Part shown: positions 21,958 through 25,434 of the stretch, in pieces | How positions within the stretch are numbered: position 1 is the stretch's first letter | Layout: each line of letters opens with the position of its first letter | Source of the DNA: Candidatus Parvarchaeota archaeon | Lineage (GTDB): Archaea; Nanobdellota; Nanobdellia; Parvarchaeales; Parvarchaeaceae | Direction: 5' to 3' | Length of the DNA stretch: 42,667 nt | Assembly: GCA_023380585.1 (NCBI GenBank) | Contig: JAMCRN010000031.1 | Span: 1 to 42,667 of the forward strand | The notes under the pieces: model-generated | What the model was told of the DNA's origin: nothing | Seen by the model: the letters and a program-made list of their open reading frames with translations, nothing else | Database searches by the model: none | Position numbers and translations under genes: made by a program

Positions 21958-23211
21958 TCAAAGCCTCATGACAAAATCCATCAATTGGTCTGCTTTCTTT
22001 ATCGTTTTTATGTGGTTTTTCCTGCACGCGCTTTCTCCGAAGGCTAAAGTGTTATTGAATCCCCTATTTGTTATCATGACGGGGATGTTCGAGTTTATAT
22101 GCCTCTTGAGCTCAGAAGAAGTAGAATGATCACAGCTTAAAACAAACGTGTCTCCATTTTCAATCTCTATAAGCCCGGATATTCTGCCGATCAAGATTCT
22201 GTCCATCACCTCGATCACGTGGTACTTTTCATGGTATTTGCCTAAGTGCGCAGCCGAATCTGTCTGCTTTACATGGATATAGACGCAATCAAACTTATGT
22301 ATAGCGTAGGAAAGCATGTCCGCCTTGGCCTGTATGTCTTGTGTCAGGTCCGAACGTTCTTCGATGTCCAGTACAGACATCCCCGCTGCCTCTGCTATCC
22401 CTTTCTCTAACGGCATGCCGGCTATTGCTGCCCATTTCTTCCCATAATTTTTGTTTATGCTCGGCAAGTTCGGATCGTGTATTGCTCCATCTCTTAAGAA
22501 TAAGAAATTCGGCGCAGGCAGGCCATTTTCGATCCTTTTCTTGTATACTTTTGACTCCTTTATCACCTCCTGTGATTTTTTAATAAATTTGTTTAGGAGA
22601 TCTGCCGTGTATTTTGCTTCTTTTCTTGCCGGTCTTATACTTTTTATCTTCTTGTCTTTCACAGGAGACGCAAAACTAAGCTTTTTACCGTTTGGGAAGA
22701 ATTTCGCTACATAACCTGGTTCGTTGTTCGATACAAACTGAGAAAGCTTCCTTTCGCCGCCCTTTATCACAAGTCCCCCTCTGTAACTTTCTCCCGACTT
22801 GAAGTAAAAATCCGCGCCTATTTTGACTTTTGAATTGATGTCGTTCTCCAATTCGAACAGTTCTTCTTTTGACATATAAACCCTGACGTTTTCCAATTTC
22901 CCACCAGACGTCTGCCCGAAGTTCACCCTTAGACACAGATCGCCTTCTGAAGGGCCCATACCGAGACCCAAACATTCAAACCAGCCTCTGCCAGTAGAGT
23001 ATTTCAGGGGATCGTAGCCAAGATTTGCTAGCACACCGGCGTCGCTCTGCGGCGCAAGACGCCCTAAAACAGATGGGAAAGCGAAGGAGGAACGCGCTGA
23101 AAGCCTGACAATGTTCGGTTTATATGCGTACTCTAGCGGAGTCTTGCCGTTAAGCTGTCTTATCGGAGTGTCTCCCATCCCATCAACTATTAAAAAAATA
23201 GTTTTAGCCAT
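21958..23211 (-). CDS. apgM: Cofactor-independent phosphoglycerate mutase, archaeal type
   Basis: Glycolytic/gluconeogenic enzyme of 417 residues interconverting 3- and 2-phosphoglycerate through a phosphoserine, in the alkaline phosphatase superfamily. The start IFLIVDGMGD provides the first metal Asp, LAPQSDAGVLANLGYDP carries the nucleophilic Ser, and the end has HVKQTDSAAHLGKYHEK and SCDHSTSSE for the remaining metal ligands. Length matches the archaeal ApgM branch (about 400-415), not the bacterial GpmI. It overlaps the preceding coiled-coil gene by eight bases and is followed one base later by the polymerase gene, so the three form one operon. Confidence 0.94.
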   Translation of the reverse strand: MAKTIFLIVDGMGDTPIRQLNGKTPLEYAYKPNIVRLSARSSFAFPSVLGRLAPQSDAGVLANLGYDPLKYSTGRGWFECLGLGMGPSEGDLCLRVNFGQTSGGKLENVRVYMSKEELFELENDINSKVKIGADFYFKSGESYRGGLVIKGGERKLSQFVSNNEPGYVAKFFPNGKKLSFASPVKDKKIKSIRPARKEAKYTADLLNKFIKKSQEVIKESKVYKKRIENGLPAPNFLFLRDGAIHDPNLPSINKNYGKKWAAIAGMPLEKGIAEAAGMSVLDIEERSDLTQDIQAKADMLSYAIHKFDCVYIHVKQTDSAAHLGKYHEKYHVIEVMDRILIGRISGLIEIENGDTFVLSCDHSTSSELKRHINSNIPVMITNRGFNNTLAFGESACRKNHIKTIKKADQLMDFVMRL

Positions 23212-23923
23212 TAGAAGAAGCTAGATAAGCGAGCTTTCTTATCAGCTCTGACATCTTAGATGAGTTGTTATTCCTACGCGTTTCGTCTATTACCCTTCTC
23301 AGTTGTATTGATATGTCCGTGTTTGTCCGTATGAGTTCATTCAGATTCTTTATTAAGACTGGCAAATAATTCAGGTCTCTTGGCTGGAAAGTAGTGGTCT
23401 GTTTCTTTGCCGTTTCATCCTTTGTAGCCGGAACCTGCTCTTTTTGCACGCTCTTAACATGCGCCGGCTCCTGCGCTCTTTTTGAGGCTTCTCTCCTGCC
23501 AGCCCTTATGCTTTCCACTATCTGGCTTATTTCCTCGACCTGTTTTGCTTTATCCCTTAATTCGTTTATCTGCTCGTTCAAGTCTTTTGTGGATATCGTC
23601 TTTAAAGGAGGAGGCGCCTTAATTTCTTCGTTCATCTTCTCTGCAGGCAAGTCATCATGTCTTTCTACTATTTCGCTGCCAGAAGGTATATGTATGTCTA
23701 TTTTAGGTACCTCTTGGAATGAAACTGTTTGTTTCGCCGGTTCCTGTTTTTCCGTTGCCTGCTGCTTAGTCTGGCTTTTAGGAGGGCTGTACTGCGGGAT
23801 TTTTTTGAGTTCCTCTATGTCTATACCAAGGTTAGTCTCTATGTTCACTATCTTCTTTTTAAGTTCTTCTACTTGGGATAGAAAAGCATTTCTCTCGTCT
23901 TCGTAGCTTTTTGCTTCTTCCAT
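23204..23923 (-). CDS. Unknown coiled-coil/disordered protein, 239 residues
   Basis: I do not recognise this protein. Residues 1-45 look like a coiled coil with Glu/Lys heptads. Residues 48-105 and 155-185 are low-complexity, rich in Pro, Gln, Lys, Thr and Glu, and probably disordered. A second coiled coil (NEQINELRDKAKQVEEISQI) lies in the middle, and the last 60 residues (LPVLIKNLNELIRTNTDISI onwards) form a helical tail with an Asn-rich run. No signal or membrane segment is seen. It is the first gene of an operon with phosphoglycerate mutase and PolX, overlapping the former by eight bases. A scaffold role is conceivable but unsupported. Confidence 0.72.
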   Translation of the reverse strand: MEEAKSYEDERNAFLSQVEELKKKIVNIETNLGIDIEELKKIPQYSPPKSQTKQQATEKQEPAKQTVSFQEVPKIDIHIPSGSEIVERHDDLPAEKMNEEIKAPPPLKTISTKDLNEQINELRDKAKQVEEISQIVESIRAGRREASKRAQEPAHVKSVQKEQVPATKDETAKKQTTTFQPRDLNYLPVLIKNLNELIRTNTDISIQLRRVIDETRRNNNSSKMSELIRKLAYLASSNG

Positions 23924-23991: not shown

Positions 23992-24657
23992 TCAATCACA
24001 CAGCAAGAGGGAATGATTTTTCTGGTATGGGTAAAGGTTTATGCTCTGTACTTTCTTGAAACGCCCTTTGAGGATCTTTACGGATTCTTTTATTATTTCG
24101 CTGCTTTCCCCGTATACATCTATGCTTTTGGTCTTTATGGCTATCGCTGCCGAGCCGCCTTTCTTTAAGAATAAATCGGCGTTTCTAATGAATATGTCGA
24201 CCTGGTTTCTCTGTGCTATGTCCTGATATAGAAAATCGCATGATGGAACGTATTTCGTATAGTCCTCTGGTTTAGATGCATCCGAAACTATCGGAAATAT
24301 ATTTTTTCTCTCTTCCGACAAGAATATAAGTTTTATGGCCATCTCTTCTGATACCTCCACTGCGTATACACTCCCATCCACGCCAACAATGTCGGAAACA
24401 TGAGACACAGTAGTACCGGACGAAGCTCCCAAGTATAGGACCTTAGACTCTTGTTTTATCTTAATGTCCCTAAGTCCATTATATATGGCCGCCCCCAGTT
24501 TGCTTTTCGATGGGATCCACTCCCTATACTCTAAACTGTTTATGTCTATCAGCCTCTCCCCATATACAGATCTGCCAAGGACAAGATTCTTGGTCAGCAG
24601 AGTTTTCCTGCCGTCCCTCATCCAGAATATGTTTTCTCCGATATTTTCAAGTTTCAT
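23992..24657 (-). CDS. flpA: Fibrillarin-like rRNA/tRNA 2'-O-methyltransferase
   Basis: SAM-dependent methyltransferase of box C/D ribonucleoprotein particles, 221 residues. The fibrillarin signature is clear: YREWIPSKSKLGAAI with the catalytic Lys, SAM-binding VLYLGASSGTTVSHVSDIVG, VYAVEVSEEM, the Asp of YQDIAQRNQVDIF, IAIKTKSID with the second Lys and a C-terminal YQKNHSLLL with the catalytic His. Length is only slightly below the usual archaeal 225-230. Its ATG overlaps the end of the Nop5 gene by four bases, the conserved archaeal pairing, so the two proteins should be made together and assemble on guide RNAs. Confidence 0.95.
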   Translation of the reverse strand: MKLENIGENIFWMRDGRKTLLTKNLVLGRSVYGERLIDINSLEYREWIPSKSKLGAAIYNGLRDIKIKQESKVLYLGASSGTTVSHVSDIVGVDGSVYAVEVSEEMAIKLIFLSEERKNIFPIVSDASKPEDYTKYVPSCDFLYQDIAQRNQVDIFIRNADLFLKKGGSAAIAIKTKSIDVYGESSEIIKESVKILKGRFKKVQSINLYPYQKNHSLLLCD

Positions 24658-25388
24658 GGCCTTATTCCCTTTATTTCTTTTTCTAGTCTGTCTTTTATCT
24701 CCTCGGAAATGTCTTTCTTCGATATATAATCTGCTTTAGCTGCTAAAGATATGGCTGCCGCTATCTTTTTCGCCGCCTTCGGTCTTTTTTCCAAGCTTAA
24801 ACCGGATAACCTTTCATGTTTGAATATGACACCGTATTTTGGTGTGCGATCGCCCTTTTTCCCTGAAAAAAGCGACATTTCCGCGCCCATCACCTGCACT
24901 TTGGAGGAGGGGAGCATCGCCAGTCGCTTTATCCCGTTGCTTAGAGCTATAAGGCGGGCGGATATTTCATATCCCGCTATAGAGTACATGTTTGGGTAAT
25001 TGGACCTTATAATCTCCTCAATCCTGTTCCATATCTGTTTCTTCACCATAGAGATGTTTCTTAGCTCGTTCAAATAGAGGTAGATCACATCCAAATCTTC
25101 ACTGGAAAGGTCATACCCCATGCTTTCCGTGCTTATGCCTTTTAGTTTACTTAGGTCTTTTCTGGAGATACTTGAAGAAAAACTCTCTATAAAATCTTCT
25201 TTTTCAGTCACAAGACGTTCCCATTCAGGAAAATAAAACGCGTACATGTCGCTCGAAGCCTTAAACAGCTCATTTTCGGCCTTTTCGGCTGACTCAACCA
25301 GCTCAAGCAGCCTCTTTATTAGGTCGTCCACCGACAGGCCGTCTTTAACAGCCTTCTTTGCCCGTTTGACATACTCCGAGTTATCCAT
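24654..25388 (-). CDS. nop5: Nop5/Nop56-like C/D box protein, lacking the N-terminal domain
   Basis: Core scaffold of C/D box RNPs, only 244 residues against roughly 360-420 for archaeal Nop5. The coiled-coil region begins almost at once, with MYAFYFPEWERLV at 49-61 matching the family FPEL landmark, and the C-terminal Nop domain is intact: YEISARLIALSNG, LPSSKVQVMGAEMSLF (159-174), PKYGVIFKH and AAISLAAKAD. About 100 N-terminal residues that normally bind fibrillarin are missing. The divergent epimerase gene starts 46 bases upstream, so no missing exon-like piece fits there. A TATA-like run is centred about 30 bases before the ATG. It is coupled to the fibrillarin gene. Confidence 0.9.
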   Translation of the reverse strand: MDNSEYVKRAKKAVKDGLSVDDLIKRLLELVESAEKAENELFKASSDMYAFYFPEWERLVTEKEDFIESFSSSISRKDLSKLKGISTESMGYDLSSEDLDVIYLYLNELRNISMVKKQIWNRIEEIIRSNYPNMYSIAGYEISARLIALSNGIKRLAMLPSSKVQVMGAEMSLFSGKKGDRTPKYGVIFKHERLSGLSLEKRPKAAKKIAAAISLAAKADYISKKDISEEIKDRLEKEIKGIRP

Positions 25389-25410
25389 ATTTATATTTGT
25401 TAAAGCACAT

Positions 25411-25424
25411 TAGTATTATTATAC
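25411..25424 (-). promoter_or_regulatory. TATA-like box of the nop5-flpA operon
   Basis: AT-rich AGTATAATAATACT-type sequence in the 46-base divergent gap, centred about 30 bases upstream of the nop5 ATG. The divergent epimerase promoter must overlap it, but I could not place its box with confidence. Confidence 0.4.
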
Positions 25425-25434
25425 TTATTTTGTT

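Follow-up and report, generated by a model that had tools for sequence, protein, structure and literature searches.

Nop5 without its fibrillarin-docking N-terminal domain in a Parvarchaeota-type archaeon and its relatives

The Nop5-fibrillarin locus

The stretch of DNA that we have analysed, referred to in what follows as the window, comprises 42,667 nucleotides (42.7 kb) of a draft metagenome-assembled genome (MAG) from Candidatus Parvarchaeota archaeon (G000; 31 contigs, 702 kb, 83% complete) and carries overlapping genes for Nop5 and fibrillarin, Table 1. In every box C/D ribonucleoprotein particle (RNP) characterised to date, to our knowledge, it is a small alpha/beta N-terminal domain (NTD) of Nop5 to which fibrillarin docks. 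The window gene is a genuine Nop5 from which this domain has been secondarily lost, except for its last helix. A first-pass annotation of the sequence had proposed that the domain is missing, and its description of a 244-residue protein with an FPEW landmark at residue 53 and a four-base (ATGA) overlap with fibrillarin is borne out in full.

Residues 32-240 of the protein match the Pfam Nop family PF01798 with 124 bits against a gathering cut-off of 25.4 (E 7e-36), and the same Pfam scan returned no NTD match. The NCBIfam archaeal Nop5 model PRK14552 aligns only at model positions 139-377, with a score of 137 bits that falls under its cut-off of 452, and in the phmmer alignment the counterpart of residue 20 is residue 124 of P. 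furiosus Nop5 (4by9_C). Ahead of the coiled coil there are 20 residues in the window protein, ∼72 in the A. fulgidus protein and 124 in that of P. furiosus. The argument originally made for the loss, that the landmark comes early in a shorter protein, led to the right conclusion, but short length by itself is no evidence and we have rejected it as proof: A. fulgidus Nop5 (1nt2_B) has 258 aa in total and retains its NTD, and its small size stems from a short coiled coil. Nop5 proteins of Aenigmatarchaeota (L268, L272, L273, L275, L278-L280) likewise combine an N-terminus of NTD length with a shortened coiled coil, and this pattern is a second way to shrink Nop5.

An AlphaFold2 single-chain model of the window Nop5, built with 48 relatives, is all-helical (predicted local distance difference test score, pLDDT, of 88.7) and consists of a helix at residues 4-17, coiled-coil helices at residues 20-52 and 96-130 and the Nop domain, with no alpha/beta NTD. 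The best two-way full-length match in the Protein Data Bank is to 3nvi (TM 0.81/0.80), a Nop56/58 whose N-terminus was removed in the laboratory, in complex with L7Ae and C/D RNA, and the model also matches the fold of 3pla and 3nmu. The helix at residues 4-17 corresponds to the final helix of the NTD in full-length Nop5, so that the deletion stops one helix short of the coiled coil, and in this respect the first-pass annotation has to be amended; the NTD is gone but 20 residues, this helix among them, are left. For a relative from the same class with 71 N-terminal residues, three strands and two helices are predicted there with high confidence, and a compact NTD of ∼70 residues is therefore a real domain while 20 residues are not.

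By strict membership criteria the window protein is a Nop5 without one defining domain. The Nop domain, the coiled-coil helices (by predicted fold) and the fibrillarin operon are all in place, an NTD was found neither in the protein nor elsewhere, and the RNA/L7Ae-contacting GAEKALFRHL loop reads GAEMSLFSGK. The coiled coil and Nop domain had been described as intact and both are indeed present, with the reservation that the ALFRHL loop of the Nop domain is changed throughout the window's family; it is intact in other NTD-less groups. TasA proteins of TIGR-Tas systems are solo Nop domains as well (PMC12045711), and one might suppose the window protein to be such an effector rather than a Nop5. 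We consider this highly improbable and the identity largely refuted, since fibrillarin adjoins in conserved order, the window contains no interspaced repeat (TIGR) array, the top sequence matches are archaeal Nop5s and the family groups among the Nop5s of its class on the tree described below.

The possibility that the truncation is an artefact of a wrong start codon, a frameshift or an assembly error, as might be feared for a draft MAG, is negligible. An in-frame stop lies 7 codons 5' of the ATG, so that an in-frame extension of Nop5 is impossible, and 28 proteins from independent assemblies share this N-terminus; together these refute a missed start or frameshift. The first-pass annotation was correct in stating that the missing part is not encoded just upstream, where the gap to the divergent neighbouring gene is only 46 bases. 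Of the discoveries that it had listed as fatal to its claim, neither a start codon or sequencing error that lengthens the protein nor a second or full-length Nop5 came to light, and G000 contains no other Nop locus in its 702 kb.

Table 1. Positions in the window of Nop5, fibrillarin and associated features
Feature	Position	Strand	Basis
Nop5 without N-terminal fibrillarin-docking domain, 244 aa	24654..25388	-	ORF (open reading frame), homology, sole genomic Nop locus, family-wide start
Residual N-terminal helix, residues 4-17 (counterpart of the final NTD helix in full-length Nop5)	25338..25379	-	AlphaFold2 pLDDT ∼90, family motif
Coiled coil and Nop domain (Pfam PF01798)	24669..25295	-	E 7e-36, structure match to solved Nop5
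FPEW landmark, residues 53-56	25221..25232	-	Sequence
ATGA overlap, Nop5 stop / fibrillarin start	24654..24657	-	Sequence
46-base gap, Nop5 to divergent epimerase-family gene (from 25435); too small for an upstream NTD	25389..25434	.	Sequence
Fibrillarin, 221 aa; S-adenosylmethionine (SAM) site, DxAQ, KxxSID, H motifs intact	23992..24657	-	Homology, alignment

Loss of the N-terminal domain in the family and the class

An NTD-less Nop5 is found in the whole of the window's family, tiny acid-mine archaea represented by Parvarchaeota-type MAGs. Apart from G000 the genus is represented by 27 genomes, 26 of which have one Nop locus and, with window residue D21 as coiled-coil anchor, 20-26 residues precede the anchor in 28/28 readable family Nop5s, most of which start as MDNxxF/YIxxA+..IK.GLSVDDLI. 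An N-terminus shared to this degree is the product of neither chance nor assembly error.

In an even sample of 194 genomes across the class we have found Nop5 in 134. Proteins with ≤33 residues ahead of the anchor were counted as NTD-less; a few have 41-58 residues and the rest ≥61. Outside the window's family there are 31 NTD-less Nop5s across 20 family-level groups, and seven family-level groups contain the NTD-less protein alongside a longer form. The last NTD helix is kept in all NTD-less proteins. On a tree of 146 tips, built by a quick method from the Nop domain and fibrillarin, 17 changes are needed to explain the NTD-less state, at least 7 of which are forced by starred (well-supported) branches, and the window's family forms one clade with a support of 99. 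The NTD is present in Pyrococcus, Sulfolobus and eukaryotic Nop56/58, so that the NTD-less forms are most simply losses and, judged from the sequences, NTD loss has recurred independently within the class. NTD-less Nop5 also occurs in one MAG of Diapherotrites and probably in one of Micrarchaeota, both other DPANN phyla. Alignment with archaeal and DPANN Nop5s, a check proposed by the first-pass annotation, thus upholds the absence of the NTD; what has to be abandoned is the notion that the loss is peculiar to 'this organism', for it has become fixed across the family and has turned up again in at least 20 further family-level groups as well as in other DPANN phyla. About 30% of high-quality class genomes have no detectable Nop5 at all, which suggests that the entire C/D system has been lost more than once.

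The NTD might instead be encoded elsewhere, as a separate and highly diverged protein that docks fibrillarin in trans. The domain is very poorly conserved, with a mean column identity of 20%, so that a diverged piece could escape notice, and in a genome that is 83% complete it could also be missed. A custom profile was prepared from 57 class NTDs; its leave-one-family-out sensitivity is 50/57 and it is positive genome-wide in four NTD-bearing genomes, all four of which form part of the profile. With this profile no NTD ORF could be detected in the flanks (∼1.5-2 kb) of any NTD-less Nop5, nothing was found genome-wide in G000, where a search for a separate NTD had been recommended, and the 30 other family genomes gave a single match at noise level (E 0.2, G017). 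A search for a separate NTD with PF08156 was negative too, albeit a weak test in that no control genome reaches the PF08156 cut-off. Fusion of the NTD to fibrillarin was rejected, fibrillarin having 221 aa that are collinear with solved fibrillarins. Since, in addition, a split would be required in each of at least 7 independent losses, we regard an NTD acting in trans as quite improbable.

Guide RNA, rRNA targets and fibrillarin

A search with a strict C/D small RNA (sRNA) pattern yields one conserved sRNA in the genus. In the window genome it is intergenic, lying between two genes at G000:C14:38799-38863(-), and has the sequence CCCGCU-AUGAUGA-AGUGAACACCUU-CUGA-AAACCA-AUGAUGA-AAAGGGUAGCUG-CUGA-GCGGG. 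Boxes C, D', C' and D are all present, the guides and both box pairs are conserved, and the terminal stem is CCCGC/GCGGG in G000 as against GCGC/GCGC in relatives, a compensatory change. A covariance model detects an ortholog in 27 of the 31 family genomes and, class-wide, in 18/30 other NTD-less, 31/84 NTD-bearing and 2/60 Nop5-less genomes (the latter two being G058 and G076), giving p = 3e-9 for NTD-less versus Nop5-less genomes, which are non-independent. Comparison of 18/30 with 31/84 indicates that the guide RNA is kept in NTD-less lineages no less well than in those that bear an NTD.

The 23S rRNA of the window genome is not assembled and targets were taken from the 23S of sister genomes. 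There the D' guide forms an 11-nt pairing with the A-loop in the active centre of the ribosome, equalled by 2/200 shuffled guides, and its N+5 position, the fifth base upstream of D', falls on the U of GGU*GUUC. Set against the Rfam consensus and the A-loop known from E. coli, this residue corresponds to E. coli U2552. Modification of the A-loop is always at U2552 and/or G2553 (PMC7994747). The D guide pairs with 23S AAGCU*ACCC, at ∼U2438, a match equalled by 1/200 shuffles (G018 guide). By predicted pairing the sRNA guide is complementary to rRNA at N+5.

The single full-length 23S of the genus departs from the usual sequence at two places. GGGGAUAACAG reads GGGCGUAAGAG (G2447C, A2448G, C2452G) in 10/10 genus members in which this stretch is assembled, and ACCUCGAUGUC reads CCACAGUCUUU (about A2503U, U2504C, G2505U) in the three that are fully read (L191-L193, corresponding to G018, G015 and G022). 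These letters of the peptidyl-transferase centre are otherwise nearly universal. The C2452G and U2504C changes could form a Watson-Crick pair. A genome from another family, G039, reads GGGGGUAAUAG at the peptidyl-transferase centre.

Fibrillarin lies directly 3' of Nop5 at most loci, and its catalytic and SAM motifs (GxxSGTT, DxAQ, KxxSID, H) are intact in the window and in nearly all relatives. L7Ae is encoded in the window genome at G000:C12:6395-6661 (E 4e-26). At fibrillarin residues 101-108 the conserved (D/E)x(S/A)PRVxR has become ExxEEMxx in the window's family alone, with PRVxR (P. furiosus fibrillarin 108-112) replaced by EEMxx and E105 present in 27/27. The methyl group of P. furiosus fibrillarin V110 is expected within 5 Å of RNA, and the surface is reported to contact guide-substrate RNA. 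The NTD-bearing relatives f51 and f23 deviate at this segment as well. We have considered and rejected a relaxed fibrillarin surface as a general outcome of NTD loss; the fibrillarins of other NTD-less groups are as conserved as those of NTD-bearing ones, and because these groups keep both PRVxR and ALFRHL the changes are not a general consequence of the loss. In the window's family they may reflect either re-docking of fibrillarin or the onset of decay.

A rival reading is that fibrillarin and the NTD-less Nop5 have become uncoupled, Nop5 persisting in a Nop5-L7Ae-sRNA remnant or as an rRNA-folding chaperone and fibrillarin acting alone or independently of guides. The loss of ALFRHL and PRVxR in the family fits this picture, as does the erodibility of a system whose Nop5 has vanished from ∼30% of class genomes, and guide-independent methylation by archaeal fibrillarin-Nop5 has been reported (Tomkuviene 2017, as cited in PMC7994747). 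Yet the overlapping gene order has been retained through at least 7 independent losses, the guides and both box pairs are conserved with a compensatory stem, N+5 falls on the universally modified A-loop uridine and the fibrillarin motifs are intact, all of which make uncoupling rather unlikely.

Directly 3' of fibrillarin is a 239-aa ORF (23204-23923, reverse strand) that has no Pfam match and is coiled-coil-like and Q/K/E-rich; beyond it lie genes for a phosphoglycerate mutase and then for PolX-type DNA polymerase/PHP proteins.

A proposed reduced box C/D RNP and its relation to known systems

Our best reading, to which we assign a probability of roughly 0.68, is that the box C/D RNP still works in a reduced form, fibrillarin reaching the guide duplex with no NTD to tether it. 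The first-pass annotation had suggested either another route for fibrillarin or a minimal C/D RNP, and this is where the evidence points, with neither a full-length Nop5 nor a separate NTD found and with both sRNA and L7Ae present. The Nop5 dimer, L7Ae and sRNA would assemble into a scaffold as in other archaea, for which 3nvi lends support, and fibrillarin would be set on the duplex of guide and substrate with no NTD to clamp it, perhaps by touching the residual helix or the coiled coil more weakly and/or through direct binding to the RNA duplex, aided by co-translation from the overlapping genes. Very few sites would be methylated, chiefly 23S U2552 and ∼U2438. Several observations weigh against a working particle. 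Deletion of the NTD reportedly abolishes fibrillarin dimerisation, as Gagnon et al. are said to have found in 2012. The loss of ALFRHL and of PRVxR, near the RNA contact V110, could mean that the RNP of the window's family is decaying or has another role. No sRNA match was obtained in G015, G001, G024 and G028, and the targets had to be read from sister genomes.

With an NTD-less Nop5 beside fibrillarin, the box C/D RNP takes a variant form that is apparently undescribed, no description having been found in the open-licence literature. Structural and NMR work has seen the NTD as the sole attachment of fibrillarin. Its repeated natural loss, with guide RNA, fibrillarin and operon retained, argues for a second docking mode or for catalysis without stable docking, and the standard assembly picture of the box C/D machine cannot then be complete. 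The family supplies natural minimal proteins with which the positioning of fibrillarin can be tested, and makes visible the order in which a minimal cell trims the machine. Whether DPANN archaea have recurrently evolved box C/D RNPs with fibrillarin delivered without an NTD clamp, the Parvarchaeota-type family having been left with essentially one double-guide sRNA, two sites in 23S domain V and altered peptidyl-transferase letters, is in our estimation an evenly balanced question.

Like archaeal Nop5 (aNOP56/58) of P. furiosus or S. solfataricus, the window protein has a coiled coil, a Nop domain and a fibrillarin operon; unlike them it has only the last helix of the fibrillarin-binding NTD, and the ALFRHL loop is changed in its family. 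A. fulgidus Nop5 is similar in total length but keeps a compact NTD and saves length in the coiled coil. TasA of the TIGR systems (TasA/TasR) shares the solo Nop domain dimer, whereas the window Nop5 is accompanied by a fibrillarin operon and a box C/D sRNA and by no TIGR array. The truncated Nop56/58 of 3nvi and S. solfataricus Nop5 135-380 (3icx) are nearly equal to the window Nop5 in extent and fold, and 3nvi establishes that such a fragment binds L7Ae-C/D RNA; there the truncation was engineered, while in the window Nop5 it is natural.
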